Positions 9,409 through 35,938 of a DNA stretch of 64,000 bases are shown here, piece by piece. How positions within the stretch are numbered: position 1 is the stretch's first letter; every line of letters starts with the position of its first letter. The position numbers and the translations under genes are program-made. A model generated the notes under the pieces. The model saw only the letters and a list, made by a program, of their open reading frames with translations. It was not told the origin of the DNA and did not search any database. The stretch lies in NCBI GenBank assembly GCA_001029295.1, contig LDXJ01000064.1, positions 310,001 to 374,000 of the forward strand, given 5' to 3'. This stretch comes from Peptococcaceae bacterium CEB3 (GTDB taxonomy: Bacteria; Bacillota; Desulfitobacteriia; Desulfitobacteriales; Desulfitobacteriaceae).

Positions 9409-10557
9409 ATGGTTCGGCTGGGAATTGAGGAATTACTCACTAAACGAGTAGATTTGCTTCACGGAAAAAAGGTCGGTCTTGTTACGAACTACGCGGTTAC
9501 GGATGTTTGCCTCCAGCCGGTGATTCGTATTTTGGCCAGCTCCACCGGATGGCAGTTGAGCAAGCTTTTTGGTCCCGAGCATGGCGTAAGAATCAGTGCG
9601 CGGGAAGGAGAGAATGTCGATACGGGGGTAGATGAGGCTACGGGTCTGCCCGCAATTAGCTTGTATGGTCCAAACAAGAAACCGACTCCCGAGATGTTGG
9701 AGGACCTTGATGTACTGGTCGTCGACCTCCATGATATTGGCTGCCGATATTACACGAACATGAACACCGTGGCGTATTGCATAGAGGCTTGTGCGGAGGT
9801 GGGGCTGCCGTGTATCGTACTGGATCGACCTAATCCAATAGATGGTATTACCAGGGAAGGCAATATCCTCGACTTGGACTTCAAATCCTTTGTCGGTATG
9901 TATGCAATTCCGAATCGACACGGGTTGACCATGGGCGAGCTTGCTCTCTTCATGAATCATCTCCTCGTCGAACCTTGCAGTTTAACAGTCGTGCCTATGA
10001 CCGGGTGGGAACGACGCATGCTGCTCTCTGATACAGGAATTCCGTTTGTACCTTCGTCACCGAACACTACTGGCCTAGACATGTGTTTACTATACCCGGG
10101 GACGTGTCTTTTTGAAGGCGTAAACCTCAGTGTCGGTCGCGGAACTGCACACCCTTTTGAATACATCGGTGCTCCTTTTGTTGATGCCAATCAGATTACA
10201 GACTGGTTTAATCGGCAGGGGTTGCCGGGTGTCAAAGGACGCCCTGTTTATTTCTCCCCCTACTACTCCCAGTATAAGGGGGAGTTATGCCAAGGTATCG
10301 CTTTACACATCACCAATCGCAGGACGTTTGAGGCAGTGAAAACCGGCCTTATTTTACTGCAGGGTGTTGCAGAACTGTACGCCGACAACTTTCAGTTCTT
10401 GGGTCATGACAGGCTGGGTCGTGCGTTTATTGATTTGCTTGCCGGAGGACCAATCAGTGAATTTATCCAACAAGGCCACGTGTTGAATTATCTGGCAGAG
10501 TCAGCCGAGTCATTGGAGGTTTTCAACCAAGAAGTTCGACAGTTTCAGATTTATTAA
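9409..10557 (+). CDS. namZ: Exo-beta-N-acetylmuramidase NamZ (DUF1343, GH171)
   Basis: A 382-residue DUF1343 protein. Bacillus subtilis NamZ (YbbC) removes terminal MurNAc from the non-reducing end of peptidoglycan fragments. Conserved stretches are GKKVGLVTNYAV at the N-terminus, LFGPEHGV (residues 53-60), DVLVVDLHDIGCRYYT and the signature LDRPNP (residues 138-143). NRHGLTMGELA and SSPNTTG follow. The Bacillus enzyme is secreted, but no signal peptide or lipobox is present here, so this one should act in the cytoplasm on imported fragments. AAGGAGAGAGG precedes the ATG. It is the first gene of the salvage island, 21 bases before the AmiE-like gene. Confidence 0.9.
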   Translation: MVRLGIEELLTKRVDLLHGKKVGLVTNYAVTDVCLQPVIRILASSTGWQLSKLFGPEHGVRISAREGENVDTGVDEATGLPAISLYGPNKKPTPEMLEDLDVLVVDLHDIGCRYYTNMNTVAYCIEACAEVGLPCIVLDRPNPIDGITREGNILDLDFKSFVGMYAIPNRHGLTMGELALFMNHLLVEPCSLTVVPMTGWERRMLLSDTGIPFVPSSPNTTGLDMCLLYPGTCLFEGVNLSVGRGTAHPFEYIGAPFVDANQITDWFNRQGLPGVKGRPVYFSPYYSQYKGELCQGIALHITNRRTFEAVKTGLILLQGVAELYADNFQFLGHDRLGRAFIDLLAGGPISEFIQQGHVLNYLAESAESLEVFNQEVRQFQIY

Positions 10558-10578
10558 AAGTAGTCAGGATGGTGGGCA

Positions 10579-11643
10579 ATGAATTTTAACCAATCTAAGT
10601 TGAAACGGGTTGACGATTTTCTCGCCGGAGAAGTTCATGCTTTACGGCTACCCGGAGCCGCTTACGCCGTAGGTATCGGTGCGGAGGTAGTTCACCAAAA
10701 CGCGGTTGGGTACGCCGAGAATCGCAATGGCCAATGCCGATTAATGCGCTCCGATACTATTTTCGATCTAGCCTCCCTCACGAAAGTCACGGCGACCTTG
10801 CCGAGCATTTTGCAGTTGATAGATACCGGCCAAATTCGCTTGAACGATTCCGTCGGGCTCTTCATTCCACAGTTCGCCACCGGTGAGAAAGCAGGAATCA
10901 CCATCCGGCACTTGCTGACCCATTCCTCAGGGCTGATTTCAGGTCGCAAGTACTACGAATCAGCTTCGTCGCGTGCTGAAATCTTGGACCTCGTTCTTGC
11001 GGAGTCACCGCTGGTTCCACCTGATACCAAAGTCGTATATAGCGACATTGGGTTTATCCTACTGGCGCAAGTGGTGGAGGCAGTGACTGGTCAGCGAATT
11101 GATAGGTATGCACACGACCACATTTTTCGTCCTCTGGGTATGGATCAAACCACTTACTGCCCGTCATCACAGTTATGTGGAAAGATAGCTGCGACGGAGG
11201 AGTTTCCCGACATAGGCGTAAAAGTCGGCACAGTGCATGACGAAAATGCGTACACAATGGGAGGTATTTCAGGTCATGCAGGTTTGTTTGCACCCCTATC
11301 CGACATGGTGACGTATATTCAAATGTGGTTGAAAGATAACCCGGTACTGTCCGAAGCCGTTCGCAAGGCGGCGGTTAAGTGTTACACACGCCACCTGGAC
11401 GGCCGTCGTGCTCTGGGGTGGGTTTGCAGAGGTGACGGTTATGACCATACAGGGGACATGTGGCCGGACACGACGGTTGGACACACTGGCTTTACCGGTA
11501 CAAGTTTAGCTTTCGATCCCGTCTCGAAGCTTTGGATGGTTCTATTGACGAACGATGTCCACTATGGTCGCGAAAATAAGACCATTGTCCGCTTGCGAGG
11601 GCGCGTTCACAATCTCGTCGCCGCAGCATTGACCAATCTGTAG
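10579..11643 (+). CDS. amiE: Serine hydrolase of the beta-lactamase family (AmiE-like MurNAc-L-Ala amidase)
   Basis: A 354-residue penicillin-binding-like hydrolase. The active-site SxxK is S66-L-T-K69 in FDLASLTKVTA. The second motif Y154-S-D is in VVYSDIGFILLAQ, and a C-terminal VGHTGFTGTS provides the HTG/KTG-like strand. In Bacillus the ybbE (amiE) product next to namZ and nagZ cleaves the lactyl-L-alanine bond of MurNAc-peptides, and the same neighbours are found here. No signal peptide is seen. The biochemical assignment rests on context; by sequence alone it could be another class C-like esterase or D-peptidase. Confidence 0.75.
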   Translation: MNFNQSKLKRVDDFLAGEVHALRLPGAAYAVGIGAEVVHQNAVGYAENRNGQCRLMRSDTIFDLASLTKVTATLPSILQLIDTGQIRLNDSVGLFIPQFATGEKAGITIRHLLTHSSGLISGRKYYESASSRAEILDLVLAESPLVPPDTKVVYSDIGFILLAQVVEAVTGQRIDRYAHDHIFRPLGMDQTTYCPSSQLCGKIAATEEFPDIGVKVGTVHDENAYTMGGISGHAGLFAPLSDMVTYIQMWLKDNPVLSEAVRKAAVKCYTRHLDGRRALGWVCRGDGYDHTGDMWPDTTVGHTGFTGTSLAFDPVSKLWMVLLTNDVHYGRENKTIVRLRGRVHNLVAAALTNL

Positions 11644-11896
11644 CTCCACTCAGCATCGGGCAAACCTGACGGGAGTAACACCTGCTCTCTGGCTCTCTGT
11701 TGAGAACAAAGCGGTGCGTTTTGAAATATGTTTTCGGTAGATAAGTCACATCAGTGAAACGAGATATTGACGAGTCTCCTGGGCCGCGGTAGTATAATCT
11801 CAAGTTAAACCTAGCGGAGGCTGAGTTGTCCAGAAAGTCTCATGACAAAGTCTCATCACACAGTGTTTGGTCCTATGTTCAACTGAGGTGATAAAT

Positions 11897-12853
11897 GTGG
11901 CATTATATATCGGTGTCGATGGTGGAGGAAGCAAAACAGAAGTCATGATTTTTGACGACGAATCGCGACAGATGGCATTGTCGTCGGGTCCCGCGAGTAA
12001 CCCAAACACGGTAGGAACCGAGAATTCGGTGGCAGCGGTGACGTCGCTTATCAACCAAGGGCTCGGGAAGTTAAACAGCACCGCAGAGCGAATTCGAGGG
12101 CTGTCGTTATGCATGGCAGGGGTCGATCGCCCCTCGCAAGCTCAAATACTGCATGGGCTTTTTCAGGAAAAGTACCCTGAAACCAGCGTGGAAGTGACAA
12201 ACGATGCCTTCGCTGCGCTGAGTGCCGGTACGCACGGTGAATCTGGCATTGTCTTGATTGCCGGTACGGGGAGTATTGCTGTTGGTGAGGGCCGAAGGGG
12301 GGATACGGCTCGCGCGGGCGGGTACGGAAATCTCGTAGGTGACGAGGGGAGTGGTTTTGACATTGGAAGACAGGGGTTAATGGCAGCAGTCCAGTACGTT
12401 GAAGGTCGTGGGGAAAAAACGGATTTATGGCATCTTGCGTCTGAATCTTTTGAGCTGCGTCATCCTTCAGATCTCATTCCAAGAGTCTACGATTCCGTAC
12501 ATCCGGTTGGAACAGTGGCTTCTTTCGCCAGATACGTGTTAGAGGCGGCCCGTTATGACGAAGTAGCGAAGGGTGTCGTAAGGAATGGGGCCGAGAATTT
12601 GGCTCGGATGGTGGAGTCCGTACGGCACCAATTGCATGACGATGTTTCGAATCGGGTGGTGCTCTCTGGCAGCTTGTTGACTCAGTCTGAGATGCTTTAC
12701 GATCGTCTAAGGCTTTCACTTCAATCCGTGTTTCCACTGGCGAAGGCAGAGAGGCTTGCTGAACGCCCTTCCGCGGGTGCGGTCCAGCGGGCGCGTCGCC
12801 TCGTGAACCCAACGCTAAGCCCGGAATTCATCAGCGCGAGCCCGGCCTGTTGA
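11897..12853 (+). CDS. murK: MurNAc/GlcNAc kinase, BadF/NAGK family (MurK-like)
   Basis: A 318-residue ASKHA-fold sugar kinase. It has the phosphate-1 motif IGVDGGGSKTE (residues 5-15), the sugar-binding VTNDAFAAL, the phosphate-2 motif GIVLIAGTGSIAVG and the conserved GGYGNLVGDEGSGFDIGRQG loop, then VVLSGSLL for adenosine binding. Clostridium MurK of this family phosphorylates both MurNAc and GlcNAc at O6. With MurQ in the same island and no PTS permease, a MurNAc kinase is the expected missing step. GTG 11897 is chosen because GAGGTGA lies 5 bases upstream. A 253-base gap separates it from the AmiE-like gene and contains TATAAT (11793-11798), a possible internal promoter. Confidence 0.82.
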   Translation: MALYIGVDGGGSKTEVMIFDDESRQMALSSGPASNPNTVGTENSVAAVTSLINQGLGKLNSTAERIRGLSLCMAGVDRPSQAQILHGLFQEKYPETSVEVTNDAFAALSAGTHGESGIVLIAGTGSIAVGEGRRGDTARAGGYGNLVGDEGSGFDIGRQGLMAAVQYVEGRGEKTDLWHLASESFELRHPSDLIPRVYDSVHPVGTVASFARYVLEAARYDEVAKGVVRNGAENLARMVESVRHQLHDDVSNRVVLSGSLLTQSEMLYDRLRLSLQSVFPLAKAERLAERPSAGAVQRARRLVNPTLSPEFISASPAC

Positions 12854-12912
12854 CGGATTCCCTGATGGATGACAGAGTGATGGCAGAATAGTGAGAGAAA
12901 GGTTGTGATTCG

Positions 12913-14559
12913 ATGTTCGACGTGAAAAGTCGCTGGGGTCAACGTATTACCATGCGGGACGGTACCTCTGTAGCGGCTGACCTGTACATACCAAATACGA
13001 AACAATTAGTACCCGCCATTGTCATTCGAACACCATACGGCCGAAGCAGTGATGGTAACGTTGAGCAAGGGCGTTGGTTTGCCGCACGCGGGTGCGGGGT
13101 ACTCGTGGTGGACGTGCGCGGCCGCGGAGATAGTGAAGGTACATTTACACCATATCGTGGAGAGGCCCTTGATGGCTACGATACGATTGAGTGGGCAGCG
13201 ATACAGCCGTGGTGCGATGGAAATGTTGGGACGCTCGGAGGAAGCTATCTGGGGAAAATCCAGTGGTTGACGGCATTGACGCATCCACCCCACCTAAAGG
13301 CCATGGTACCTATCGTATCGCCGTCGGATCCGTTCGTGGAATGGCCAACAGGTATTCCTGGCCCCATGCACGCTTGCTGGCAGTTTCTCGTATCAGACAG
13401 GGTGTCACAAAACATAAGCCAGGTGAATTGGGAACAGGTGTATGCGCACTTGCCGCTGCTCACCATGGATGAAGCATCGGGCAGAGAGATGCCTTTCTGG
13501 CGGGAGCAGTTCGATCACAGTCAGCTGGACGACTGGTGGCGGCAAACCTGCTATCAGAACCGGTTTAATGAAATCGATCTGCCTGTCCTGCATATCTCAG
13601 GCTGGTATGATGACGAACAAATTGGCACCCCCTTAAACTTCTCCGGTATGACCAATCAAGCGCCAAGCGAAGGCGCCAGAAGGTCGCAGCGTCTGGTCAT
13701 GGGACCGTGGGGGCACAATGTCAATCTCTCGACACGACTGGGGGAGATCGATTTCGGGGAAGCGGCCCTTATCGACCTGCGAAGCAGAGAACTGCGCTTC
13801 TTTGACCGATGGTTGAAAGGTCAGACAAACGGGATCGATGAAGAACGCCCTGTATCCATCTTCATCATGGGGAAGAACCAGTGGCGTGAAGAGGCGGAAT
13901 GGCCCCTGGCCCGTACAGTCTACACGCCTATGTACCTTCACAGCAGCGGAAGTGCTAACAGTCGATTCGGCAACGGAACCCTTTCCATGGAGCCACCCAT
14001 GACAGAAAAATGGGATAGTTATCTTTATAATCCCAACCGGCCTGTCCCGTTTCTCACGGAACCGACATCCTCGCAAATCGGAGGTCCAGACGACTATAGC
14101 GCTGTCCATAGGCGAGACGACCTGCTCGTTTACACCAGTGAACCGCTGACGAAGGAACTGGAGGTAACAGGGCCTGTCAAAGCCTGCCTCTACGCGTCTA
14201 CGTCCGCTCCGGATACCGATTTCATGGTACAGTTACATGACGTCTGGCCAGATGGTTATACCCAACGCTTGTGTGACGGAATGGTCAGGGTTCGCTTTTT
14301 CAAGGGCATGGATGTTCCCGAACTTGTCGAACAGGGCAGCGTTCGTCGCTATGAAATAGACTGCTGGAACACAGCTCACGTGTTTCTGCCCGGGCACCGT
14401 ATCTGCGTGCACGTGGCTTCAAGCGCATTTCCCAAGTACGACCGTAATCAAAATACAGGCGAGCCATTGGGCTTGAGCAGTCATATCGAAACGGCTCTCC
14501 AGCGAATCTACCACGATGCGGAGCATCCGTCGTCCATTGTTTTGCCGGTGATATTCTGA
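12913..14559 (+). CDS. CocE/NonD (Xaa-Pro dipeptidyl-peptidase S15-like) hydrolase
   Basis: A 548-residue alpha/beta hydrolase with the order typical of CocE/S15 proteins. The N-terminal core starts MFDVKSRWGQRITMRDGTSVAADLYIP. The nucleophile elbow GTLGGSYLGKIQ has S111, and a helical cap follows. An acid residue and a catalytic histidine (MGPWGHN) come next, then a C-terminal jelly-roll (ELEVTGPVKACLYASTSAPDTDFMVQLHDVWPDG). Family members cleave Xaa-Pro dipeptides, esters or beta-lactam side chains. The context suggests an acyl or peptide bond in muropeptide-derived material. There is no signal peptide. It starts 59 bases after the kinase gene. Confidence 0.82.
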   Translation: MFDVKSRWGQRITMRDGTSVAADLYIPNTKQLVPAIVIRTPYGRSSDGNVEQGRWFAARGCGVLVVDVRGRGDSEGTFTPYRGEALDGYDTIEWAAIQPWCDGNVGTLGGSYLGKIQWLTALTHPPHLKAMVPIVSPSDPFVEWPTGIPGPMHACWQFLVSDRVSQNISQVNWEQVYAHLPLLTMDEASGREMPFWREQFDHSQLDDWWRQTCYQNRFNEIDLPVLHISGWYDDEQIGTPLNFSGMTNQAPSEGARRSQRLVMGPWGHNVNLSTRLGEIDFGEAALIDLRSRELRFFDRWLKGQTNGIDEERPVSIFIMGKNQWREEAEWPLARTVYTPMYLHSSGSANSRFGNGTLSMEPPMTEKWDSYLYNPNRPVPFLTEPTSSQIGGPDDYSAVHRRDDLLVYTSEPLTKELEVTGPVKACLYASTSAPDTDFMVQLHDVWPDGYTQRLCDGMVRVRFFKGMDVPELVEQGSVRRYEIDCWNTAHVFLPGHRICVHVASSAFPKYDRNQNTGEPLGLSSHIETALQRIYHDAEHPSSIVLPVIF

Positions 14560-14576
14560 ATTTTGATTTCAGTGTA

Positions 14577-14605
14577 TTGATAAACTAGTTGAAAAAGTAT
14601 ATCAT
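14577..14605 (+). promoter_or_regulatory. Promoter upstream of the sugar ABC transporter genes
   Basis: TTGATA (14577-14582), a 17-base spacer and TATCAT (14600-14605) lie 60 bases before the first permease gene. An inverted repeat GCCCA...TGGGC follows at about 14622-14640, near +20, and could be an operator. Confidence 0.5.
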
Positions 14606-14665
14606 GAAGGCGGGCACAAAGGCCCATAGTCATAGTGGGCATTGAAGTAATGGGGGTGGCAATCT

Positions 14666-15580
14666 TTGCGGAAAAAACGCTGGACTATCATTGTGAGTTT
14701 TCTGGCCCCGGGGTTCGTCCTGTACGTATTATTTATCATCTATCCGTTCCTCTCCAGTATCCGCTATAGCTTCTACAACTGGAATGGTGTGGGGCCACTT
14801 ATTGATTTTGTCGGATTGAAAAATTTTGCTTATGCGCTTTTTTCACATAATTTTGCACCTTTTTTTTGGCGAGCTATATTGCACAATCTATACTTCTTTG
14901 CTGTTACCATGATTCTAACCTCCGTTTTTGGGGTACTGTTGGCGTATTTGTTAGTTGCCGTTCACGAACGGACATCAAGATGGTTTCAGGTTATTTATTT
15001 CATTCCAATGGTCGTCCCGCCTGTAGTAGTTGCCTATGTATGGAGCATGTATTTAGAGCCGAATTACGGTGTGCTTCCACAGCTTCTGGAAGCACTTCAC
15101 CTCAACGCGTTAAATGTTCCGTTTTTAGGTAGTGCGGGATTAGCCATCCCAACAATTGCTGTAATCACAGCATGGGCTGGCATGGGTTTACCGATTCTCA
15201 TCTTCGTTGCCGCGATGATCAATATACCCGAAGAAATGATAGAAGCTGCAAGGGTAGATGGAGCAACACGTTTCCGAACCTTTGTCTCTGTCATCTTTCC
15301 ATTTATTAAACCGACTTTCTTAACGATCACCACGCTGATTTTTGTGGGTGCCTTTGGCGCATTTGACTATATCTTCATCATGGAGGGAACACAAGCCGGC
15401 CCCAACTACGCCACTGACGTAATTGGGACTCTGTTTTACCGAACAGCGTTTGGTGGATTCGGAACGACAGCGCAAAGCATGGGCCTGGCCACCGCGCTTG
15501 CGTTTTTGGGATTTCTCATTGTCATGATTGCGTCTACCATTCTCGTGCTACTCCAACGCAGTGCATCTAGAAATTTGTAA
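14666..15580 (+). CDS. Sugar ABC transporter permease (MalF/UgpA type)
   Basis: A 304-residue CUT1-family inner-membrane permease. About six hydrophobic segments are seen: near residues 8-28, 70-95, 105-130, 155-180, 205-235 and 265-295. The EAA-type loop reads EEMIEAARVDGATRFRTF, which docks the ATPase. The start is a TTG with GGGGGTGG 6 bases upstream. The next gene begins 14 bases after the stop. Placed between a MurNAc kinase and MurQ, it probably imports MurNAc, GlcNAc-MurNAc or a related amino sugar. No ATP-binding partner is encoded in this block, so a shared MsmX-like ATPase must act. Confidence 0.92.
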   Translation: MRKKRWTIIVSFLAPGFVLYVLFIIYPFLSSIRYSFYNWNGVGPLIDFVGLKNFAYALFSHNFAPFFWRAILHNLYFFAVTMILTSVFGVLLAYLLVAVHERTSRWFQVIYFIPMVVPPVVVAYVWSMYLEPNYGVLPQLLEALHLNALNVPFLGSAGLAIPTIAVITAWAGMGLPILIFVAAMINIPEEMIEAARVDGATRFRTFVSVIFPFIKPTFLTITTLIFVGAFGAFDYIFIMEGTQAGPNYATDVIGTLFYRTAFGGFGTTAQSMGLATALAFLGFLIVMIASTILVLLQRSASRNL

Positions 15581-15593
15581 AGAAGGTGTTAAT

Positions 15594-16415
15594 ATGCGGT
15601 TCAAGCGCCCCTACATTGCGTATATCATTCTGCTTATGTTTGCAATCGTGGCACTGTATCCCTTGGTTGACATGGTGTTTATGTCTTTTAAGGACCTCCC
15701 CGGAATTGTTTCTACACCGTTCAGCTTGCCGACAAAGTGGCACTTTGACAACTATTCCACGGCGTGGATTCAAGGGAACTTGTTCTCGTACTTAATTAAT
15801 ACCGCGATAGTCTCTGTAGCATCAGTGATCATTGTCATTTTTTTCTCGTCAATGGCTGCCTACGTTATTGCTCGTTTCGAATTTAGGGGCAACCAATTGA
15901 TCTACCTGATGTTTCTGGCGGGTCTGGCTCTTCCCATCCAAATGATGGCTGTTCCGCTGTACATTCTTATGAAACAGCTTTACCTTCTGAATAACCTGTT
16001 GTCCGTAATACTGATTTATTCCGCAAGCGGATTGTCGTTCAGTGTTTTCTTACTGGTGAACTTTATCCGCAGTGTACCTAAAGACCTCGAGGAATCAGCA
16101 TTTCTGGATGGTGCTTCATATTTCCAGACCTATTGGCACGTAATTTTACCGTTAATTCGTCCGTCTCTGAGCACAGTGGCAATTCTCAACTTCATTTCCG
16201 CGTGGAATGGGTTCTTTTTTCCGCTTATTTTACTCAATGATCCCAATCGAATGACAGTGGCAGTTGGTGTTCTCTCTTTTGTTGGTCAATATTCAACTCA
16301 GTGGAATCTATTACTGCCCGCTCTCGTAATTGTAATCCTACCCACCATCATCGTGTTTGCTATCGCATCTCGGCAGTTCATTCGAAATCTTACTGCTGGT
16401 GCCGTCAAGATGTAA
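15594..16415 (+). CDS. Sugar ABC transporter permease (MalG/UgpE type)
   Basis: A 273-residue second permease of the CUT1 pair. It has the N-terminal membrane segment IAYIILLMFAIVALYPLVDMVFMSF, further helices near 75-105, 110-140, 145-170 and 185-215, and the ATPase-docking loop PKDLEESAFLDGASYFQTYWHVILP. ATG 15594 follows AGAAGGTG; an upstream in-frame start inside the previous gene is not used. It is translationally close to the first permease (14-base gap) and to the binding protein, which follows 60 bases later. Confidence 0.92.
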   Translation: MRFKRPYIAYIILLMFAIVALYPLVDMVFMSFKDLPGIVSTPFSLPTKWHFDNYSTAWIQGNLFSYLINTAIVSVASVIIVIFFSSMAAYVIARFEFRGNQLIYLMFLAGLALPIQMMAVPLYILMKQLYLLNNLLSVILIYSASGLSFSVFLLVNFIRSVPKDLEESAFLDGASYFQTYWHVILPLIRPSLSTVAILNFISAWNGFFFPLILLNDPNRMTVAVGVLSFVGQYSTQWNLLLPALVIVILPTIIVFAIASRQFIRNLTAGAVKM

Positions 16416-16475
16416 GGTTATTACCGGCTTGGGAATCTCTCAATGTCCGGATTACAATTAAGGGGGAGAAAGTTT

Positions 16476-17795
16476 ATGAAAAAAGGGAAGTCCTTGGTCT
16501 TAACTGCCGCCGCACTCGCTATGGCAGCCATTGGGGTTCTTACGGGTTGCGGAGCAGGTGGTGGTTTGCCAACTGTCACCGTTTGGTCCTGGCGTTCACA
16601 GGACGCAAATCTGTGGAAACAGGTTCAGCAAGGTCTTAATGCCAAAGGTGAGAAGGTTAACATCCAATTTCGGCCCATCAATTCAACAAATTACGACGCA
16701 GTTCTTCAAACCGCCATGGATGGTGGGCAAGGGCCAGATGTTTTCTACGCCCGGGCTGGAACAGAAACTCTCGATTATGCGGCAGCCGATATGATTAAGC
16801 CCTTGGATAGCATCGTCAGCCTCTCAAGCATTAATTCTGCATCCCTCCACTCCGGGGTACAGTGGAATGGCAAGACTTATGGTGTTCCCTTTGCAATTCA
16901 AACGATGGAGGTATTCTATAACAAAGACATCTTTAAGCAATACGGTTTATCTGTGCCAAAGACTTGGCCGGAGTTCATCCACGTTTGCCAGGTACTTAAG
17001 GGCAAAGGCGTCACCCCAATTTATACTATGGGGCTCCAAGGTTGGATGTTGGCGCTCAATTTTGATGAAGTGGGCGCGACTATGCTGGGTGACACATTCA
17101 CTCAACAACTGGTCAACAAGCAAGTAAACTACAGTGACCAGCCGTTCGTTGACGCTCTTGGCAAATACCAGTCACTCGCCCCCTATTTTGAACCTAATTT
17201 CCAAGCAGTTGGTTCGGCTGGGAACGAGCAGGAAACTCAGTTTGCCTTGGGAAAATCCGCGATGGTAATGGACGGGATTTTTGACGTGCCGACCATTCAG
17301 AAATTTAACCCTAACATCAACATGGGCGCTTTTCTTATTCCGCCGGCAACATCCAGTCAATCAGAGAAAATTGATTGGTACCTAGATGGCGACATTTGCC
17401 TGAATAGCAAGATTGCCAACCCTGCCGAGAAGAAAGCAGCTGAAGAACTCATTGCCTTCACGGCGACCAAACAGTTTGGTCAAGACTTTACCGATATTGC
17501 CGGTGAAATTTCGCCGATTGCAGGTGTTCAAGTGCCTGCCAAGTATCCGTTGTCTGTGCAAGCATACCACTGGTATCAAACGGCTCCAATCAATCCTTTG
17601 TTTGGGATTCGCAGCCCAATGGATACGCAACCTCCGACTCCGATTAACAAACTGAGTAAGAGTGGAGTCGCTAACACTAACGGCATTTTCACGGCGGAAC
17701 AGAAGGTGCTGGTGCCGCTTCTTACCAGTAAAATAACGCCAAAAGAAGCTGCGGATGAGATTCAACAGACAGTGTCTTGGTATTTTAAGAAATGA
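16476..17795 (+). CDS. Extracellular sugar-binding lipoprotein of the CUT1 transporter
   Basis: A 439-residue family 1 solute-binding protein. The N-terminus MKKGKSLVLTAAALAMAAIG is a signal peptide ending in the lipobox LTGC, so the mature protein is lipid-anchored. VTVWSWRSQDANLWKQV, FNKDIF-like YNKDIFKQYGLSVPKTWPEF and EAADEIQQTVSWYF are typical of this family. ATG 16476 has GGGGGAGAAAG upstream. It should capture the substrate for the two preceding permeases. The ligand is inferred from the neighbours: MurNAc, a GlcNAc-MurNAc disaccharide or a muropeptide. Confidence 0.9.
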   Translation: MKKGKSLVLTAAALAMAAIGVLTGCGAGGGLPTVTVWSWRSQDANLWKQVQQGLNAKGEKVNIQFRPINSTNYDAVLQTAMDGGQGPDVFYARAGTETLDYAAADMIKPLDSIVSLSSINSASLHSGVQWNGKTYGVPFAIQTMEVFYNKDIFKQYGLSVPKTWPEFIHVCQVLKGKGVTPIYTMGLQGWMLALNFDEVGATMLGDTFTQQLVNKQVNYSDQPFVDALGKYQSLAPYFEPNFQAVGSAGNEQETQFALGKSAMVMDGIFDVPTIQKFNPNINMGAFLIPPATSSQSEKIDWYLDGDICLNSKIANPAEKKAAEELIAFTATKQFGQDFTDIAGEISPIAGVQVPAKYPLSVQAYHWYQTAPINPLFGIRSPMDTQPPTPINKLSKSGVANTNGIFTAEQKVLVPLLTSKITPKEAADEIQQTVSWYFKK

Positions 17796-20138: not shown

Positions 20139-20202
20139 TTTACCAAAAACTTAGCAAAAACTTAGTTGCTATTAAGCTCTCAGCAAAAAGTAGGTGTTTT
20201 CC

Positions 20203-23218: not shown

Positions 23219-23269
23219 TTCGAACAGGGCCGGTCTCCAAGACCGGCTCCGGTTTTAGGAGGAAACCCC

Positions 23270-24262: not shown

Positions 24263-24263
24263 C

Positions 24264-28285: not shown

Positions 28286-28368
28286 GACCTTTAGCAGGCT
28301 TTTGGCACCGCGTGTTCGCGCGCACAGAGAATACTTCGACCAAAACTTGTCACAACAGGAGGATTGTG

Positions 28369-29313
28369 ATGATTCGCACCTACCATAGCGGTGATGAAGC
28401 CGCATTCATCAAGACATGGAATGAGTCCATGCCAGCGGACGGCATTACGGAAAAGGTTTTCATCAGTCGCATTCTCGTTGATACCAACTTCGATCCCGAC
28501 GGCATCTTGCTTGCCGAGGAAGAGGGCCGCATTGTCGGGGGCCTGGTGGCCATTGTCCGCAAAACCCCCATGTCGGGGACCGACTTGGAGCCGGCAAGTG
28601 GCTGGATTACGGCCTTTTTCGTGCGGCCGGATGCCCGTGGGCGCGGTATTGGGCGGGACCTCATGGACGCTGCAGACGGGTTTTTTCGGAACCGCCACCG
28701 CACAACCGTCTACTTTGCCTCCTACACTCCTAACTATTTCGTGCCCGGCATCGATCGAGATCAATATCCCGCGGGTGCCGTGCTGTTGGAGACGGTCGGA
28801 TTTGCCAAACTCTATCAATGCGCAGCCATGGACAAAAATCTGGTGGGATTTGTCATCCAGGATGATGTCCGACGGGTAGAAGTCGCACGGCGTGAAGAGG
28901 GCTACGTGATTGAAAACCTTGCTTTACCGTATGTATCCAACCTCATCGGCTTCACCGACGAAGAATTTGATCCTGACTGGACCCGCGCCATCCGCGAGGC
29001 ATTGAAGAGCGGAGTGCCCCTGTCGAACGTCCTCATTGCCCGTCATGGCGAAACCGTAGTGGGCTTCTGCATCTTTGGTGGATATGATGGTGTGGGCGAG
29101 CGCTTCGGACCTTTTGGGGTCGCCGAATCTTTGCGCGGCACTGGATTGGGCAAAGTGCTGCTGTACCGTTGCCTTGAGCAAATGCGGCACGTCGGGCTTC
29201 ACACAGCCTGGTTCCTATGGACTGGCGAAAAAGAGGCCGCTGGGCACTTGTACCTCCGAGCCGGTTTTGCCGTGACCCGGCGATTTGACGTGATGAAGAA
29301 AATCTTAGCGTGA
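28369..29313 (+). CDS. Tandem GNAT-domain acetyltransferase
   Basis: A 314-residue protein with two GNAT domains. The first (residues 1-160) has ITAFFVRPDARGRGIGRDLMDAA. The second (residues 175-314) has FGPFGVAESLRGTGLGKVLLYRCLEQM and ends with AGHLYLRAGFAVTRRFDVM. Both acetyl-CoA loops are intact (ARGRGIG and LRGTGLG), so either half could be catalytic. ATG 28369 has AGGAGG 6 bases upstream. It lies 83 bases after the other GNAT gene and overlaps the next gene region. The role is unknown; it probably acts with the PIG-L deacetylase and NagZ. Confidence 0.82.
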   Translation: MIRTYHSGDEAAFIKTWNESMPADGITEKVFISRILVDTNFDPDGILLAEEEGRIVGGLVAIVRKTPMSGTDLEPASGWITAFFVRPDARGRGIGRDLMDAADGFFRNRHRTTVYFASYTPNYFVPGIDRDQYPAGAVLLETVGFAKLYQCAAMDKNLVGFVIQDDVRRVEVARREEGYVIENLALPYVSNLIGFTDEEFDPDWTRAIREALKSGVPLSNVLIARHGETVVGFCIFGGYDGVGERFGPFGVAESLRGTGLGKVLLYRCLEQMRHVGLHTAWFLWTGEKEAAGHLYLRAGFAVTRRFDVMKKILA

Positions 29314-29327
29314 AAGACGGAGAACGG

Positions 29328-30035
29328 ATGGTGAAGATGAAGATTATGGCTATCGGCGGCCACGCCGGCGACATGGATCTTACGGCGGGCGCAACACTTG
29401 CGCAGGCAGTGATGGATGGACACGAGGTGGTGCTGTTTCACCTAACCCTGGGGGAAAAGGGACACCCTACACTGTCCGCTCAAGATTATGCCAAGCAAAA
29501 AATTGAGGAGGCGCAGGCTTTCGCCGCCAGCATTGGCGCCAAAGCGCGGTTCCTGGACTACGGGGACGGCGAATTGCCGGTCAACGACGAAGTCAAGTTC
29601 CAAGTGGTGGATGTGATCCAGGAAGAGAAGCCTCAGGTGCTCATCACCCACTGGAAGAATAGCATCCACAAAGATCATGCCAACACGTACCAGATTGTGG
29701 AGGACGCGGTATTTTATGCAGAAATCAAGGCCTTTGAACGAAGTCAGCCGCCGCACGGAGTGGGCCGCACCTATTATGCGGATAACTGGGAGGACCCCTT
29801 TGGCTACAACCCCGATGTGTTTGTCGGGATTCGTGAGGAAGCCTATGAACTCTGGCTGAAAGCGGCATCCCATTATGCCTATGCTCGTGGTGAAACCGGC
29901 TTTCAATTCCTTGAATACTACAAGGCGCTTTTCCACGTGCGCGGCTTGCCGCACGGATTTCCCCGCGCAGAAGTCTTTGCTCGCCCTGTCTGGTCCCGCC
30001 AGGTGCGGCTCAACTCTATTGCGGAAAGAGGTTAG
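29328..30035 (+). CDS. PIG-L/LmbE-family N-acetylglucosaminyl deacetylase-like protein
   Basis: About 235 residues with the LmbE fold. The usual AHPDDE zinc motif appears in a variant form, GGHAGDMD, keeping H12 and D15. The second ligand motif is intact in THWKNSIHKDHANTY. Family members de-N-acetylate GlcNAc-containing molecules. Beside NagZ and two acetyltransferases it may remove an acetyl group from an amino sugar or an acylated peptide. ATG 29328 has GGAG 5 bases upstream; GTG 29310, overlapping the previous stop, is also possible. The variant zinc motif leaves some doubt about its activity. Confidence 0.8.
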   Translation: MVKMKIMAIGGHAGDMDLTAGATLAQAVMDGHEVVLFHLTLGEKGHPTLSAQDYAKQKIEEAQAFAASIGAKARFLDYGDGELPVNDEVKFQVVDVIQEEKPQVLITHWKNSIHKDHANTYQIVEDAVFYAEIKAFERSQPPHGVGRTYYADNWEDPFGYNPDVFVGIREEAYELWLKAASHYAYARGETGFQFLEYYKALFHVRGLPHGFPRAEVFARPVWSRQVRLNSIAERG

Positions 30036-30078
30036 CATGACATATTTGCTCAATCGGTAAACGACAGGAGGATGTCTC

Positions 30079-31677
30079 ATGACGGACGAAGAAGACCTGA
30101 GACGACGGATTGGCCAATTACTGGTCTTCGGGTTTGACGGGCTCACGGTCCCGGAATATGTAGCGGATCTAATTCGCACTCATTATCTGGGCAACATTAT
30201 TCTCTTTTCCCGTAATGTCTCCACCAAGGAGCAACTGAGCGCACTTACCGATCATCTTCAGAGTCTTGCCCAGGAATCCGGTCAGGAGATGCCGCTCACC
30301 ATTTCTGCCGACCAGGAAAACGGCATCGTGCGCCGCCTGCCAGAGGACATTCCCGTCTTTCCCGGCAATATGGCGTTGGGGGCCACCCATTCTCCGGAGG
30401 ACGTCTATCGATCCGGTGTCCTGACTGGGCGCCTGCTGGCCAACTTGGGTATCAACTTCGACTTGGCTCCGGTGCTGGACGTTAACAACAATCCCGCCAA
30501 CCCGGTGATTGGCGTTCGGTCATTGGGCGATGTCGCGGAGACGGTGGCGGAGTTGGGCGTCCGGTTCATGCAAGGCCTGCAGTCCCAAGGAATCATAGCC
30601 TGCGGAAAGCACTTCCCGGGGCATGGTGATACCAACGTGGACTCGCACTTGGACCTGCCCAGTATTGCCCATGACCGGCTTCGTCTTGAGAGTGTGGAAT
30701 TGGTACCGTTCAAGGCGGCTATTCAGGCTGGCATCGACTCCATCATGACGGCTCACGTGGTCTTCCCGGCGGTGGAACCGGAGAAAATTCCCGCGACTCT
30801 CTCCTACCGCGTCCTCACTTCCCTGCTGCGCTACGAACTTGGCTTTGCCGGCGTGCTGACTACGGACTGCCTAGAAATGAATGCCATTTCCGCGACGGTT
30901 GGGATCGGTGCCGGAGCTGTGCAGGCCTTAAGGGCGGGTGCCGACATGGTCATGGTCTCGCATCACCTCGATCGGCAACTCGCGGCCATCGACGCCATCG
31001 TCAGTGCGGTTCGACAGGGAGATCTGGCGGAAGCTCGCATCGAAGAAGCCTATCAACGTGTTCAAGCTCTGAAGGCCAAGCGGCTGGGGGCGACCGCCCG
31101 CGAGGAATGGGCCCCGTTGCTTCAGGCAGCCAAGGCGGTACAAGTCGACTTGTCTCAACACGCTGTTACCGCCCTGCGGCTGACGCCCGCGGCCCAGCCG
31201 ACCAAGGACAGCCTCGAAAAAATCGCGGTGCTGGTCGACGAAACCACGCCGCTGATGGCGGCAGCCGGCGGAGGCGGCCACCATCCCTTAATCAAAGATG
31301 CCCTCGCGACGGTGTTTCCGGGACTGGAAGTGCAGGAGTTTCTGTTCCCCTCGGTCTTTGACTGCCAGTCTGAGGAACAGTTATCCGCGTTGTTGGCACA
31401 ATATGATGCCGTATTGGCCGGCATCAACGGGACACGCAATACGCGTTACCTGGAGTTTGTCAAAGAATTGGCCGCAAGGCCTATTCGCCAGGCCACGCTG
31501 CTCTTGAGAAGTCCCTACGATGCCCTGCATGTGAAAGACGCGCCGAACCTCTACGCACTCTACGAAGATACCCCTTGGATGGCTGAAGCAGCCATTCGGT
31601 CTCTCTTCGGCGAGGGAGCCCAGGGCCGGTTGCCAGTCCACATTTCCGAGGACTTCCCCAGGGGATATCGCGTCTAG
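30079..31677 (+). CDS. nagZ: Beta-N-acetylhexosaminidase, GH3 family
   Basis: A 532-residue NagZ that releases GlcNAc from GlcNAc-MurNAc(-peptide). The catalytic dyad loop KHFPGHGDT (residues 177-185) carries the acid/base H182 and D184, and the nucleophile is D263 in TTDCLEM. A second C-terminal domain of about 170 residues is present, as in the two-domain Bacillus enzyme. That enzyme is secreted, whereas this one has no signal peptide and should be cytoplasmic. AGGAGG lies 9 bases before the ATG. It is the last gene of the transporter operon, followed by a terminator. Confidence 0.92.
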   Translation: MTDEEDLRRRIGQLLVFGFDGLTVPEYVADLIRTHYLGNIILFSRNVSTKEQLSALTDHLQSLAQESGQEMPLTISADQENGIVRRLPEDIPVFPGNMALGATHSPEDVYRSGVLTGRLLANLGINFDLAPVLDVNNNPANPVIGVRSLGDVAETVAELGVRFMQGLQSQGIIACGKHFPGHGDTNVDSHLDLPSIAHDRLRLESVELVPFKAAIQAGIDSIMTAHVVFPAVEPEKIPATLSYRVLTSLLRYELGFAGVLTTDCLEMNAISATVGIGAGAVQALRAGADMVMVSHHLDRQLAAIDAIVSAVRQGDLAEARIEEAYQRVQALKAKRLGATAREEWAPLLQAAKAVQVDLSQHAVTALRLTPAAQPTKDSLEKIAVLVDETTPLMAAAGGGGHHPLIKDALATVFPGLEVQEFLFPSVFDCQSEEQLSALLAQYDAVLAGINGTRNTRYLEFVKELAARPIRQATLLLRSPYDALHVKDAPNLYALYEDTPWMAEAAIRSLFGEGAQGRLPVHISEDFPRGYRV

Positions 31678-31707
31678 GCTAGCCCAACAAGTCGCATCTA
31701 ATGCAAC

Positions 31708-31733
31708 GGTCCCGTGAGGGACCTGTTTTTTTT
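31708..31733 (+). terminator. Intrinsic terminator after nagZ
   Basis: GGTCCC (31708-31713) pairs with GGGACC (31718-31723) across a GTGA loop, followed by TGTTTTTTTT. It marks the end of the peptide-transport/nagZ operon. Confidence 0.88.
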
Positions 31734-31814
31734 GAGCTCATGTGTTAAAGCAGGAAAACTGCCCTTCTGTGCAGAAGAATTGAGAAAGCGTTATTGTGGA
31801 AGGGGAAGGAAAGA

Positions 31815-33431
31815 ATGGATCTTGAATTCACAGGCAAGATCTACACCTTGACGGGGAGTGAGCCGGTCGACTCGATGATTGTGAGGGACAAGCAGATTGT
31901 CTATGTTGGCCCAAGGGTGCATGGGATACCCAGGGAAACAGTTGATTTGGCTGGAGCTACCATGCTGCCCGGATTTGTAGACAGCCATGCTCACCCTCTG
32001 TGGCTTGGCCTCTTGCAAAAACAGATCCGCACCAATCCCCCTTTTGCGAATAGTCTTGACGAATTTCTAAGTGTAATAGGCGAAAGCGCACGAGGGGTTG
32101 CGAAGGGGCAGTGGCTCTTGGGCGGAGGATTTGATGAGTCCCAATGGAGTTTACCCCGGCTGCCGCAGAGGCAGGAGTTGGATCGCGTTTCAGGAGAACA
32201 TCCTGTATTGATGATGCGAGCCTGTGGACACATCGCGGTGGTGAATTCCTTGGCCCTTAAATTGGCGGGTGTTACGGAGGACTCCGTCGACCCTCAAGGA
32301 GGAAAAATAGTTCGCCATGAGGGGGTCTTAACCGGAGAACTGCAAGAGTCCGCCATTCAATTAGTGAGCCGGTGTGTACCCGAGCCAAACCCTTCGGTTG
32401 CGGCGAGTGCCATTGTCGATGCGAGTAACTATCTTGCCTCTCGCGGTATAACAAGCGTATGCGACATGGAATGCGGAGATGGCTCGCACGGGGAATGGGA
32501 TTTGTATAGTGAAGGCTTACGCACAGGCAGCTGGAAGCAAAGAGTCGGCATTTTCATAGTTTTCGAGTGGTTTAAGGCCAGCGGCCAGTTACCGCTCATC
32601 GAGCCGGAAGTCAGGCAAGACTTGAAACTGCTTGGTCTGAAATTGTTTGCCGACGGGAGCATTTCGGGACATACGGCGGCTTTACACGAACCCTATTTAC
32701 ATGACGGGGGCAGGGGGATAATGCGGCTGGGCGAAAGTGTAATCGTTGAAGCGGCGGGCGCGGCTTTAAGTCACGGGCTGAAACTTGCGGTCCATGCCAT
32801 GGGGGATGCGGCCATTGATCAGGTCGTCACAGCATTATCGAGATGGGGGGGTCAGGGTGGTGACAGCTTCACAATAGAACACGCTGCCTTGCCGACGACG
32901 TATGCGCGGGAGATGATGGCCAAACATAAGATTGGGGTAGTAACGCAACCCATATTCACGTATGCCGAGATTGAATCGTACTTAAATGGACTCGGACCCG
33001 AGCGCACGTTTAACTCCTACCCGATACGATCCCTCAAAGAACAAGGCATCAGAGTTGCCCTGTCCTCAGATGCCCCCTCCACCGCTCACGCTGACCCGGC
33101 AAATCCCTGGTTAGGGATCAAGATGGCCACAGGCCGGCGTGCAAGCACGGGTGTGGCCCTGTCCAGTGACGAATGTATATCTTTAACCGAAGCATTAAGG
33201 AGCTATACGGAGATTGGTGCCGCGGTAAGAGGCTTTGAGAATTGTGGCCGCCTTTTGCCGGGATATGCTGCCGACTTTTCTCTGTGGGACAAGGATCCTT
33301 TCAAAGAAGGTCCGGCTGGCATGCCAGACGAGGCACTTGCAACCTATAGAAATGGAGAGGCCATTCATTCCGGTAAGACCTGGACAGCATACCGGGAGAG
33401 AGGGTATTTTTCTGACCAAGCAAAAGATTAG
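31815..33431 (+). CDS. Amidohydrolase of the YtcJ/amidohydrolase 3 family
   Basis: A 538-residue metal-dependent hydrolase. The N-terminal beta-sandwich leads into LPGFVDSHAHPL, the HxH metal motif. KLFADGSISGHTAAL, AVHAMGDAAIDQV, FTIEHAAL and ALSSDAPSTAHADP give the remaining His/Asp ligands. The C-terminus returns to the sandwich (GRLLPGYAADFSLWDKDPF). Relatives hydrolyse N-acyl or N-formyl amides, but the substrate is not predictable. ATG 31815 has AAGGGGAAGGA upstream. It has its own transcription unit after the nagZ terminator and lies 80 bases before the M20 gene. Confidence 0.87.
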   Translation: MDLEFTGKIYTLTGSEPVDSMIVRDKQIVYVGPRVHGIPRETVDLAGATMLPGFVDSHAHPLWLGLLQKQIRTNPPFANSLDEFLSVIGESARGVAKGQWLLGGGFDESQWSLPRLPQRQELDRVSGEHPVLMMRACGHIAVVNSLALKLAGVTEDSVDPQGGKIVRHEGVLTGELQESAIQLVSRCVPEPNPSVAASAIVDASNYLASRGITSVCDMECGDGSHGEWDLYSEGLRTGSWKQRVGIFIVFEWFKASGQLPLIEPEVRQDLKLLGLKLFADGSISGHTAALHEPYLHDGGRGIMRLGESVIVEAAGAALSHGLKLAVHAMGDAAIDQVVTALSRWGGQGGDSFTIEHAALPTTYAREMMAKHKIGVVTQPIFTYAEIESYLNGLGPERTFNSYPIRSLKEQGIRVALSSDAPSTAHADPANPWLGIKMATGRRASTGVALSSDECISLTEALRSYTEIGAAVRGFENCGRLLPGYAADFSLWDKDPFKEGPAGMPDEALATYRNGEAIHSGKTWTAYRERGYFSDQAKD

Positions 33432-33511
33432 AGTAGCTCTAAGCAACCTGGAGAAATATCATATGGTCAAAATCTCAAAGGGACGTGCTGAAAATAGAGG
33501 AGGAGATCATC

Positions 33512-34705
33512 TTGCCGGAGATCGATTACCTATCGCAAGCTAAGGAACTTAAAGAGGAACTGGTAAGGATAAGACGGGACATCCACATGCATCCCGAACT
33601 GGGTATGGAGGAGCACAGGACCTCCGCCCTGGTGGAAGCATACTTGCAATCGTTGGGCTTGGAAACGAAACGAGTGGCAGGCACGGGGATTATCGGAATA
33701 TTCGGTGGCGTGGGCGCCGGAAAGACGGTGGGCCTCAGGGCGGATATGGATGCCCTGCCTCTTTCCGACGAGAAGAAAGTGGAGTATGCCTCCTGTGTTC
33801 CCGGCAAGATGCATGCCTGCGGCCATGATGCCCATACGGCCTGCCTCCTGGTGGCGGCGAAGCTCCTGACCCAGTATCAAGCAACACTTCCCGGTCATAT
33901 CAAATTCTTTTTTCAGCCGGCAGAGGAGACGGATGGTGGCGCCCTCCCCATGATCGAGGAGGGGGCCATGGAGTCCCCCCACGTGGACGCGGTGTTCGCC
34001 CTCCATTGCGATGAGAGCATCGAGGCTGGCCAGGTCGGAGTTACTCACGGTCAGACAAACGCCGCCGCCGACACCTTTGAGGTGATTATTCACGGTAAAA
34101 GCTGCCATGGGGCGGCACCACACGAAGGAATCGACGCCATTGTGGTGGTGGCCCAGGTTATTAATGCCTTGCAGAGTATTGTAAGCCGCAACGTGGACCC
34201 GGTTGACTCGGTCGTGGTGACCATCGGTATGCTCCGGGGAGGCTACAAGGAGAATATCATTGCTGACCGGGCGGAACTATCCGGAACGATCAGGACGCTC
34301 TCTCCCGTCACCCGGGAAATTGTGAGGGAGCGGGTGGAACGGACCATCAAGGGAGTGGCCGGGGCCATGGGCGCCAGCGCCGAAGTCAGACTCACCCGCG
34401 GCTACCCGTGCCTTATCAATGACCGTTCCATGGCCGATCTCGTAGTGGCCACCGGTAAAAAGGTGCTGGGAGAAAACCACGTCGTTCTAGATAGCAAGCC
34501 CAGCCTGGGAGTGGAGGATTTCGCCTACTTCCTGGAAAAGGCGCCGGGCGCCTTCTTCCGCCTGGGAGTCAAGAATGAAAAAAAGGGCATTGTCCATCCC
34601 GCCCACAGTAGCCTGTTCGACATCGATGAGGACGCTCTGCCGGTTGGCGCCGCGATGATGGCGCAGATTGCCACGGCATACCTGCAAAACAGTGCCAGGG
34701 GCTGA
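33512..34705 (+). CDS. M20-family metallo-amidohydrolase (aminoacylase/peptidase)
   Basis: A 397-residue M20D-type hydrolase. The N-terminal HMHPELGMEEHRTS, GLRADMDALPL, KMHACGHDAHTA and FFFQPAEET stretches hold the binuclear metal ligands and the catalytic glutamate. The dimerisation/lid domain follows. VEDFAYFLEKAPGAFFRLGV and PAHSSLFDIDEDALPVGAAMM close the catalytic domain. Family members remove N-acyl groups or cleave short peptides. TTG 33512 is chosen because AGAGGAGGAG lies 6 bases upstream. The context suggests processing of acylated or murein-derived amino acids. Confidence 0.9.
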   Translation: MPEIDYLSQAKELKEELVRIRRDIHMHPELGMEEHRTSALVEAYLQSLGLETKRVAGTGIIGIFGGVGAGKTVGLRADMDALPLSDEKKVEYASCVPGKMHACGHDAHTACLLVAAKLLTQYQATLPGHIKFFFQPAEETDGGALPMIEEGAMESPHVDAVFALHCDESIEAGQVGVTHGQTNAAADTFEVIIHGKSCHGAAPHEGIDAIVVVAQVINALQSIVSRNVDPVDSVVVTIGMLRGGYKENIIADRAELSGTIRTLSPVTREIVRERVERTIKGVAGAMGASAEVRLTRGYPCLINDRSMADLVVATGKKVLGENHVVLDSKPSLGVEDFAYFLEKAPGAFFRLGVKNEKKGIVHPAHSSLFDIDEDALPVGAAMMAQIATAYLQNSARG

Positions 34706-34902
34706 GATTTCCCTTGATAGTAATGCTGTCCCAATTTTAATCGGTGAGTCAAGCACAGAAATTGTTAAGATGTCGGAGGAACATTCTGTCCTCAAGTGTG
34801 AACCAGATTGTCAATTCTCTCCAGGAGACAAGATAGAGTTCATTGCGTAATGGTAAAGCCGAGCTTGTGCTTGATATACCTGCCAGAGGAAGTTTTCGTT
34901 AA
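34704..34902 (+). pseudogene. Remnant of the C-terminus of a D-threonine-aldolase-like PLP enzyme
   Basis: Right after the M20 stop one frame reads EISLDSNAVPILIGESSTEIVKMSEEHSVL, then PGDKIEFI before a TAA at 34848-34850. A second frame, shifted by one base, reads GKAELVLDIPARGSFR to a TAA at 34900-34902. SEEHGxL, PGDxIxxIPxH and a terminal ARG-F/K stretch characterise the C-terminus of D-threonine aldolase/alanine racemase-like proteins. The loop between the halves is missing, and no N-terminal domain is present. This looks like a decayed gene, probably for D-amino acid use. The recognition is from memory of family motifs. Confidence 0.45.
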
Positions 34903-34996
34903 AAGGGGTGGTCCGACGCGCGGGAAGCAAATATAACGCGTATTCGAGGAAACTCGCTCATTAACTTTAATATCAGAAGGAGCTGATTTTACTACG

Positions 34997-35938
34997 ATGA
35001 TCAAACCGAGAGCGCTTAAAAAAGGAGAGACGATCGGTCTAGTTGCCCCATCCGGTCCGATTCCTGAACCGGAAATAGTTGACAGCGCGGTAGCTAAGGT
35101 TCAGGAATTAGGATTTAACGCAAAGGTCGGGAAAAGTTGCCGCGAGACTTATGGATATCTGGCTGGCAGTGACGACCTTAGGGCTAATGATCTAAACGCG
35201 ATGTTCGCCGACCCAGTAATCTCTGGTATTATCTGTGTGAGGGGTGGTTATGGAGCGCCGAGGATTCTCGATAAATTGGATTACAGGACTATCGCAAGAA
35301 ACCCTAAGGTATTTGTGGGTTACAGTGATATCACCAGCCTTCACGTTGCCTTTAACAAAATGTGCGATCTTGTAACATTTCATGGGCCTATGGTAACGAC
35401 CGACATGCTTACTGATTTCGATGATTTCTCGAAGGATAGCTTTCTGAAGGCAATTACCACAAGCGAATCGCTGGATATGGTGGCAAATCCTCCAGGTGAG
35501 CCGATCAAATGTCTCACGAGAGGAAAGGCAAGCGGTCCCATCGTCGGTGGCAACCTTTCACTTATTTCGGCATTAATGGGTACTCCCTATGAGATAGATA
35601 CTAAGGACAAGCTTCTACTTCTTGAAGATATAGATGAGTATCCTTACCGTGTGGATAGAATGCTGACACAGCTTAGATTGGCGGGGAAGTTTGCCCAATG
35701 CAGCGGAGTGATAATTGGTGATTGGAATCACTGTGTTCCTGAAGAAGGCAAACCTAGTTTGTCCCTAATGGATCTCTTCGAAGGAATTATTGCCCCTTTT
35801 GGAAAACCTGCTATCTACAATTTGAAAGCCGGGCATTGCCGGCCAAAAATGACCGTTCCGTTTGGCGTAGAAGCAATTCTTGATGCAGACAATTGTACGC
35901 TTTCTATTAAGGAGAGTGCAGCCGAGCCGAGTATTTAA
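34997..35938 (+). CDS. ldcA: LD-carboxypeptidase (S66 family, LdcA/MccF-like)
   Basis: A 313-residue cytoplasmic serine peptidase that removes the terminal D-alanine from murein tetrapeptides. The N-terminus has GLVAPSGPI. The nucleophile S110 lies in VFVGYSDITSLH, the Glu of the Ser-Glu-His triad is expected in LLLLEDIDEYPYRVDRML, and the catalytic His region reads NLKAGHCRPKMTVPFG. The length agrees with LdcA. AAGGAG lies 14 bases before the ATG, a long spacing, but no better start is seen. This gene adds the peptide-trimming step to the salvage route. MccF-like immunity activity is an alternative. Confidence 0.9.
   Translation: MIKPRALKKGETIGLVAPSGPIPEPEIVDSAVAKVQELGFNAKVGKSCRETYGYLAGSDDLRANDLNAMFADPVISGIICVRGGYGAPRILDKLDYRTIARNPKVFVGYSDITSLHVAFNKMCDLVTFHGPMVTTDMLTDFDDFSKDSFLKAITTSESLDMVANPPGEPIKCLTRGKASGPIVGGNLSLISALMGTPYEIDTKDKLLLLEDIDEYPYRVDRMLTQLRLAGKFAQCSGVIIGDWNHCVPEEGKPSLSLMDLFEGIIAPFGKPAIYNLKAGHCRPKMTVPFGVEAILDADNCTLSIKESAAEPSI

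Follow-up and report, generated by a model that had tools for sequence, protein, structure and literature searches.

A window of 64,000 nucleotides from the genome of Peptococcaceae bacterium CEB3 (positions 310001-374000 of contig C64; genome G000, 5.3 Mb in 64 contigs) contains at positions 9409-35938 an island of ~26 kb, all on the + strand, that is probably devoted to import-first salvage of peptidoglycan fragments in this anaerobe of Gram-positive and spore-former type (Table 1). A sequence-only reading of the window had described here a muropeptide salvage pathway free of the phosphotransferase system (PTS) and fed by ATP-binding cassette (ABC) transporters. Every family that it named was recovered with Pfam and NCBIfam models, in order and on the same strand, among them a MurK-like putative kinase for N-acetylmuramic acid (MurNAc) and N-acetylglucosamine (GlcNAc). 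Three more genes were found, coding for a CocE/NonD hydrolase, an Amidohydro_3 protein and an M20 peptidase. There are ~22 collinear genes within 26 kb, the majority from one pathway, and such a grouping is not due to chance. The annotated genes between 8322 and 37408 include no PTS gene, and hence no murP, and two ABC importers, CUT1 and Opp, are available for uptake, both as had been read from the sequence.

Table 1 Features of the probable peptidoglycan salvage island and its upstream border (positions in the window)
Feature	Position	Strand	Evidence
FCD/GntR-type regulator, directly upstream of island	8322-9056	+	Pfam FCD
namZ, exo-beta-N-acetylmuramidase family GH171, without signal peptide	9409-10557	+	NamZ_N 240 bits, NamZ_C 145 bits
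AmiE-like serine beta-lactamase-fold hydrolase, without signal peptide	10579-11643	+	Beta-lactamase PF00144 203 bits
MurK-like putative MurNAc/GlcNAc kinase, BadF family	11867-12853, start maybe GTG 11897	+	PF01869 114 bits
CocE/NonD (S15) alpha/beta hydrolase	12913-14559	+	TIGR00976 452 bits
CUT1 ABC permease 1	14666-15580	+	PF00528; 62% to L077
CUT1 ABC permease 2	15594-16415 (open reading frame, ORF, opens 15528, likely start 15594)	+	PF00528; 69% to L077
CUT1 solute-binding lipoprotein	16443-17795	+	SBP_bac_1; 59% to L077
murQ, MurNAc-6-phosphate etherase	17932-18870	+	TIGR00274 370.6 bits, curated equivalog cut-off 302, passed
L-Ala-D/L-Glu epimerase family, muropeptide peptide salvage	19071-20138	+	NF041118 192 bits, under its cut-off; 1jpm
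MurR/RpiR-type regulator with SIS domain	20194-21060	+	HTH_6 + SIS
Opp-type peptide-binding protein	21395-23218	+	SBP_bac_5 167 bits
oppB, oppC, oppD, oppF	23270-27185	+	PF00528, OppC_N, ABC_tran, oligo_HPY
GNAT, Acetyltransf_9 type	27185-28285 (ORF opens 27032; start inferred from translation)	+	PF13527
Tandem GNAT, partner of PIG-L gene	28369-29313 (ORF from 28240)	+	two Acetyltransf_1 stretches
PIG-L/LmbE-fold protein, HAGD replacing HxDD	29310-30035	+	PF02585 83 bits
NagZ-type GH3 with KHFPGHGDTNVDSH loop, without signal peptide	30079-31677	+	PF00933 291 bits; loop read in translation
Intrinsic terminator, GGTCCCgtgaGGGACC plus T-run	31708-31735 (stem 31708-31723)	+	3' of nagZ
Amidohydro_3 hydrolase, island membership uncertain	31794-33431	+	PF07969 268 bits
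M20 peptidase/amidohydrolase, island membership uncertain	33485-34705	+	PF01546, PF07687
LdcA-type L,D-carboxypeptidase (S66)	34997-35938	+	PF02016, PF17676

Enzymes, importers and the PTS loci of the genome

NamZ, the AmiE-like protein and NagZ are all leaderless, with the catalytic domain directly at the N-terminus of the translations (MVRLGIEELL, MNFNQSKLKR and MTDEEDLRRR, respectively; the GH3 N domain of NagZ begins near residue 7). Both the NamZ_N and NamZ_C domains were found in 9409-10557, which makes it a GH171 member and a predicted exo-muramidase. The AmiE-like protein, a predicted amidase, is 33-36% identical to genes that take the place of AmiE in murP and ABC clusters of other genomes. 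NagZ scored 201 bits against PRK05337, just below the cut-off of 207, and the epimerase-type protein had the L-Ala-D/L-Glu epimerase 1jpm as best PDB match (E 1.3e-62). The closest PDB group of the CUT1 solute-binding protein (SBP) includes chitin-oligosaccharide binders. The CUT1 genes (14666-17795) are without an adjoining ATPase gene, and a shared ATPase encoded elsewhere is assumed.

The BadF/MurK-type kinase proposed by the sequence-only reading has as its closest solved structure 8zo3, annotated as a MurNAc/GlcNAc kinase (E 3e-40, 142 bits, 35% identity across 300 aa). Hexokinase (2e-23) and NAGK (4e-21) matched more weakly, and the MurK-type chains of Tannerella only at 1e-5 or worse (8ow9, E 1e-5). 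Identity to 8zo3 reaches 44% for a kinase from genome G425 whose gene belongs to a murR-murQ-amiE-namZ-nagZ-kinase-anmK cluster. From these matches the island kinase would phosphorylate MurNAc and GlcNAc, and the MurK of Clostridium acetobutylicum is known to be active on both (PMC5790795). A kinase tree of few rows and long branches did not place the island protein firmly. Across the genome 13 matches of BadF/ROK-like type were counted; among these are two ORFs of ~1,430 aa that have two BadF domains each.

Beyond gene family, location and synteny we infer the transported substrates, the enzyme activities and the co-regulation. The CUT1 system would import MurNAc-containing mono- and disaccharides, using the ATPase encoded elsewhere, and the Opp system would take up muropeptides or peptides of the cell wall. 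Within the cytosol, non-reducing GlcNAc would be cut off by NagZ and non-reducing MurNAc by NamZ, and the AmiE-like enzyme would remove the peptide from MurNAc, leaving the peptide to LdcA and the epimerase. The kinase would then produce MurNAc-6P (and GlcNAc-6P), MurQ would convert MurNAc-6P to GlcNAc-6P, and NagA and NagB, encoded on contig C53, could complete the breakdown of the sugar. A separate PTS-fed route through MupG and MurQ may operate from contig C43.

Actually, the description as PTS-free holds for the island and is wrong for the organism, because contigs C43 and C53 carry PTS loci. The genome has four PTS_EIIC genes (nagE, above cut-off, two of Lac/Cel type and one of mannitol, mtlA, type), none of them for a MurP-type (Glc-family) permease, so murP is not found elsewhere in the genome either. 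On C43 (L010:7827-16450) the order is mupG-murQ-PRD/sigma54 regulator-Lac-family PTS IIB-IIA-IIC-GNAT-PIG-L, and this second MurQ scores 385 bits; on C53 nagE lies together with nagA (above cut-off) and nagB. Two routes thus appear to coexist in the organism, one with MupG that is fed by the PTS and one with NamZ that is fed by ABC transporters. The C43 locus resembles the MurP-MupG-MurQ system of Staphylococcus aureus (PMC6262408), with the differences that its PTS IIB/IIA/IIC are of the Lac/Cel family instead of a Glc-family MurP and that it includes GNAT and PIG-L genes. Its mupG and murQ frames overlap, and upstream there are BREX-type ATPase, helicase and panD-like genes.

Some genes in and near the island do not enter this scheme. 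The CocE/NonD hydrolase, perhaps an esterase, sits inside the MurNAc half and is 84% identical in the sister species G001; we know of no role for it in peptidoglycan salvage. Beside the island, 35945-41139 has an aspartokinase-type gene (- strand), DUF3870, a 2,4-diaminopentanoate dehydrogenase-type gene and DUF4438, possibly for amino-acid fermentation. Further on (43027-44550) a 507-aa protein with a Cas12f1-like/TnpB domain is probably an IS200/IS605-type TnpB.

Recurrence across the phylum and relation to known systems

NamZ was found in 85 of 398 genomes sampled over the phylum (3 of 46 within the family), and 80 NamZ neighbourhoods, each of up to 20 kb, were read. The co-occurrence search suggested by the sequence-only reading, for NamZ, murQ, BadF and CUT1 without murP, was productive: murQ without murP was found in 16 of the 80 neighbourhoods, most of them with ABC genes, a BadF kinase or AnmK, while murP was present in five. 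All five murP clusters had NamZ with a leader and 14 of the 16 others had solely leaderless NamZ (Fisher p 0.001), in counts that ignore kinship, with two pairs among the murP clusters being congeneric. Furthermore, neighbourhoods with leaderless NamZ were richer than the others in BadF (10/39 vs 1/41), AnmK (10/39 vs 0/41) and CUT1 permeases (16/39 vs 5/41).

A compact and complete CUT1-fed set (L077) reads nagB-nagA-anmK-nagZ-namZ-namZ-SBP-permeases-amiE-murQ-murR-badF, and its transporter subunits are 59-68% identical to those of the island. An Opp-fed set was found in L071 (anmK-badF-amiE-GNAT-nagZ-namZ-murQ-murR-oppFDCBA). G425 (L029+L133) has namZ-murQ-kinase-GNAT-PIG-L with opp genes, nagA and amiE 14 kb further, and G039, of the same family as our strain, a run CUT1-namZ-nagZ-anmK-murQ-nagB-kinase-nagA. 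Altogether the ABC-fed assembly recurs over the phylum in L077, L071, L029+L133, L092, L057, L072 and L020. In L072 a polysaccharide-deacetylase-type gene (L072:8719-9318, G244:C26:22718-23317) lies between murQ and namZ.

The claim that this assembly is new does not survive, given such recurrence and the import-first recycling with MurK already published for C. acetobutylicum (PMC4974736, PMC5790795). There, muropeptide cleavage is described as taking place other than outside the cell, unlike in Bacillus subtilis (PMC4974736). The MurK/NagZ/GlmA recycling of C. acetobutylicum (Reith et al. 2011, via PMC4974736, PMC5790795) likewise consists of import first and cytosolic cleavage, with a non-secreted NagZ and a BadF-family MurK that acts on MurNAc and GlcNAc and that the island kinase matches by sequence. 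The island differs from that system in a NamZ without leader, in a CUT1 system of its own next to Opp, in the epimerase and LdcA, and in a GNAT/PIG-L pair where a clear GlmA ortholog would be expected. The C. acetobutylicum recycling genes presumably also lie near ABC transporter genes. In a literature search that covered few subscription papers, no publication turned up that describes a dedicated ABC-fed set with NamZ.

The Bacillus murQ-murR-murP-amiE-nagZ-namZ cluster has the MurQ, MurR-type regulator, AmiE-like, NagZ and NamZ families in common with the island. In the Bacillus-type clusters of our sample (L026, L028, L097) murP is present and NamZ, NagZ and AmiE each carry a leader. The island has no murP and instead combines ABC genes and a kinase with hydrolases that lack a leader and are predicted not to be secreted. 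The MurT-MurK-MurQ system of Tannerella forsythia (PMC5790795, PMC10465942) likewise combines PTS-independent uptake of MurNAc with a cytosolic kinase and MurQ; it differs in using the secondary transporter MurT, in belonging to a Gram-negative and in its MurK, a remote relative of the island kinase.

The GNAT/PIG-L pair

The tandem GNAT and the PIG-L protein form a pair that recurs in peptidoglycan-salvage loci of ABC and PTS type alike. In characterised LmbE-like enzymes the first Asp of the HxD1D2 motif (D1) acts as general base or, for BshB, as acid (PMC4101496). In the island PIG-L this residue is lost (HAGD, with G at D1), and with it the general base, while the metal ligands are retained (H18, D21 and the downstream H are invariant or aligned). 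This protein (29310-30035) and that of C43 (L010:15764-16450) belong to an HAxD subfamily of 16 members where D1 is G, A, L, M, F or V in 16/16; in homologues outside the subfamily D1 is D in 8/8, and a tree splits both sets with full support. GalB, a hydratase of the PIG-L fold, is likewise without D1 (HSAD). The AlphaFold model (mean predicted local distance difference test 89.6) gave Z 28.1 for GalB and Z 28.0 for deacetylases, a tie by which fold search cannot separate hydratase from deacetylase.

Salvage genes for peptidoglycan accompany 12 of the 16 HAxD members, including loci of PTS type (C43, and L124 with murP and mupG); the other four, all from one family, lie beside a GNAT yet outside salvage loci. 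In addition, NamZ was also present in all 10 other sampled genomes with a close PIG-L match (at least 43%), vs 85/398 overall, and 7 of 11 such matches were within 10 kb of NamZ. The same literature search, with few subscription papers covered, found no paper on the HAxD subfamily.

The tandem GNAT (28369-29313) shares 46-52% identity with the PIG-L-adjacent GNATs of other salvage loci and is only distantly similar to the glucosaminide acetyltransferase type 5kf1/5kga (E 1e-8). A second GNAT of G425 (L029:13116-14090) matched 5kf1, which we take to be the GlmA glucosaminide acetyltransferase of C. acetobutylicum, at E 3e-53. We considered the tandem GNAT as a GlmA ortholog and set this aside as unlikely, the match being weak and a separate GlmA-like gene coexisting with the pair in G425.

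We tentatively propose, at somewhat less than even chance, that the tandem GNAT and the D1-less PIG-L perform a dedicated two-enzyme salvage step other than the usual N-deacetylation, common to the ABC- and PTS-fed routes. As a guess at its form, PIG-L could open or remove a modified N-acyl group (e.g. a muramic delta-lactam) and GNAT could restore the N-acetyl group for the kinase, NagZ and MurQ. The distribution of spore genes gave no support to a muramic-lactam (spore cortex) role, because Spo0A, found in all HAxD genomes checked, is near-ubiquitous in the sample (345/398 genomes) and spore_pdaA, above cut-off in 40/398 genomes, was found among HAxD genomes in G425 only; such a distribution cannot refute the lactam idea.

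One island or two halves

The sister species G001, the sole genome of the same genus compared, retains the first half of the island (L021, G001:C1:3182700-3202600), with identities of 89% for murR, 83% for murQ, 84% for cocE and 85% for amiE. This copy is visibly decaying: namZ is without residues 118-327 and badF has a frameshift close to residue 144. Between cocE and murQ there are no CUT1 genes, and the Opp half is missing too (best OppA match ~25% identity), its place at the murR side being taken by nagB/nagA/nagE. The island is therefore modular, with two separable halves, and its parts are not an obligate unit. A simple scan of the island intergenic regions found no common dyad that could be a shared operator, and promoter-like counts equalled those of shuffled sequence. 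With the terminator 3' of nagZ and no shared dyad, one regulon for both halves is only a possibility. The upstream FCD/GntR-type regulator could, from its position, control the first half.

These observations on G001 and on regulation count against a unitary import-first pathway, as do the kinship among the murP clusters noted above, the absence from the island of an ATPase gene for the CUT1 set and the assignment of presumed importer substrates by gene family. The single pathway for both halves put forward by the sequence-only reading is thus only a possibility. The lack of the Opp half in G001, with nagB/nagA/nagE at its murR side, the terminator and the lack of a common dyad would also fit two adjacent independent islands responding to different inducers, a MurNAc-sugar module (namZ-murR) and a peptide or amino-acid uptake module (opp-ldcA) that happens to include NagZ. 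We consider this arrangement unlikely, though a serious competitor, since in other genomes NagZ, LdcA and the GNAT/PIG-L pair, here in the second half, repeatedly accompany namZ and murQ, and opp genes share clusters with namZ and murQ in L071, L092 and G425 (L029+L133).

It is much less probable that the island is decaying and largely unused, with the PTS/MupG/MurQ locus of C43 as the working MurNAc route; the decaying copy in G001 and the complete second route in the same genome would agree with it, but all reading frames of the island are open and of full length against the family models. Least probable of all is the use of chitin or GlcNAc oligosaccharides, with CUT1 for chito-oligosaccharides, a GlcNAc kinase and NagZ as a general hexosaminidase, for although the SBP matches include chitin-oligosaccharide binders and the kinase family also phosphorylates GlcNAc, MurQ (past its curated cut-off), NamZ, the epimerase and LdcA would be useless for chitin degradation and namZ and murQ stand on either side of the CUT1 genes both here and in L077.

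Import-first salvage of peptidoglycan fragments is thus the reading that we retain. The strategy itself is known, as is PTS-independent use of MurNAc with a kinase, and the part worth following is the GNAT/PIG-L pair. The comparison suggests two broad strategies for cell-wall sugars in Gram-positive-type bacteria, digestion outside with PTS import and ABC import with digestion inside, and the leader of NamZ together with the presence of murP may predict which of them is in use. One genome holds both strategies, and the unassigned pair is attached to both. Should its substrates be modified muropeptides, this would account for the return of such fragments to metabolism.

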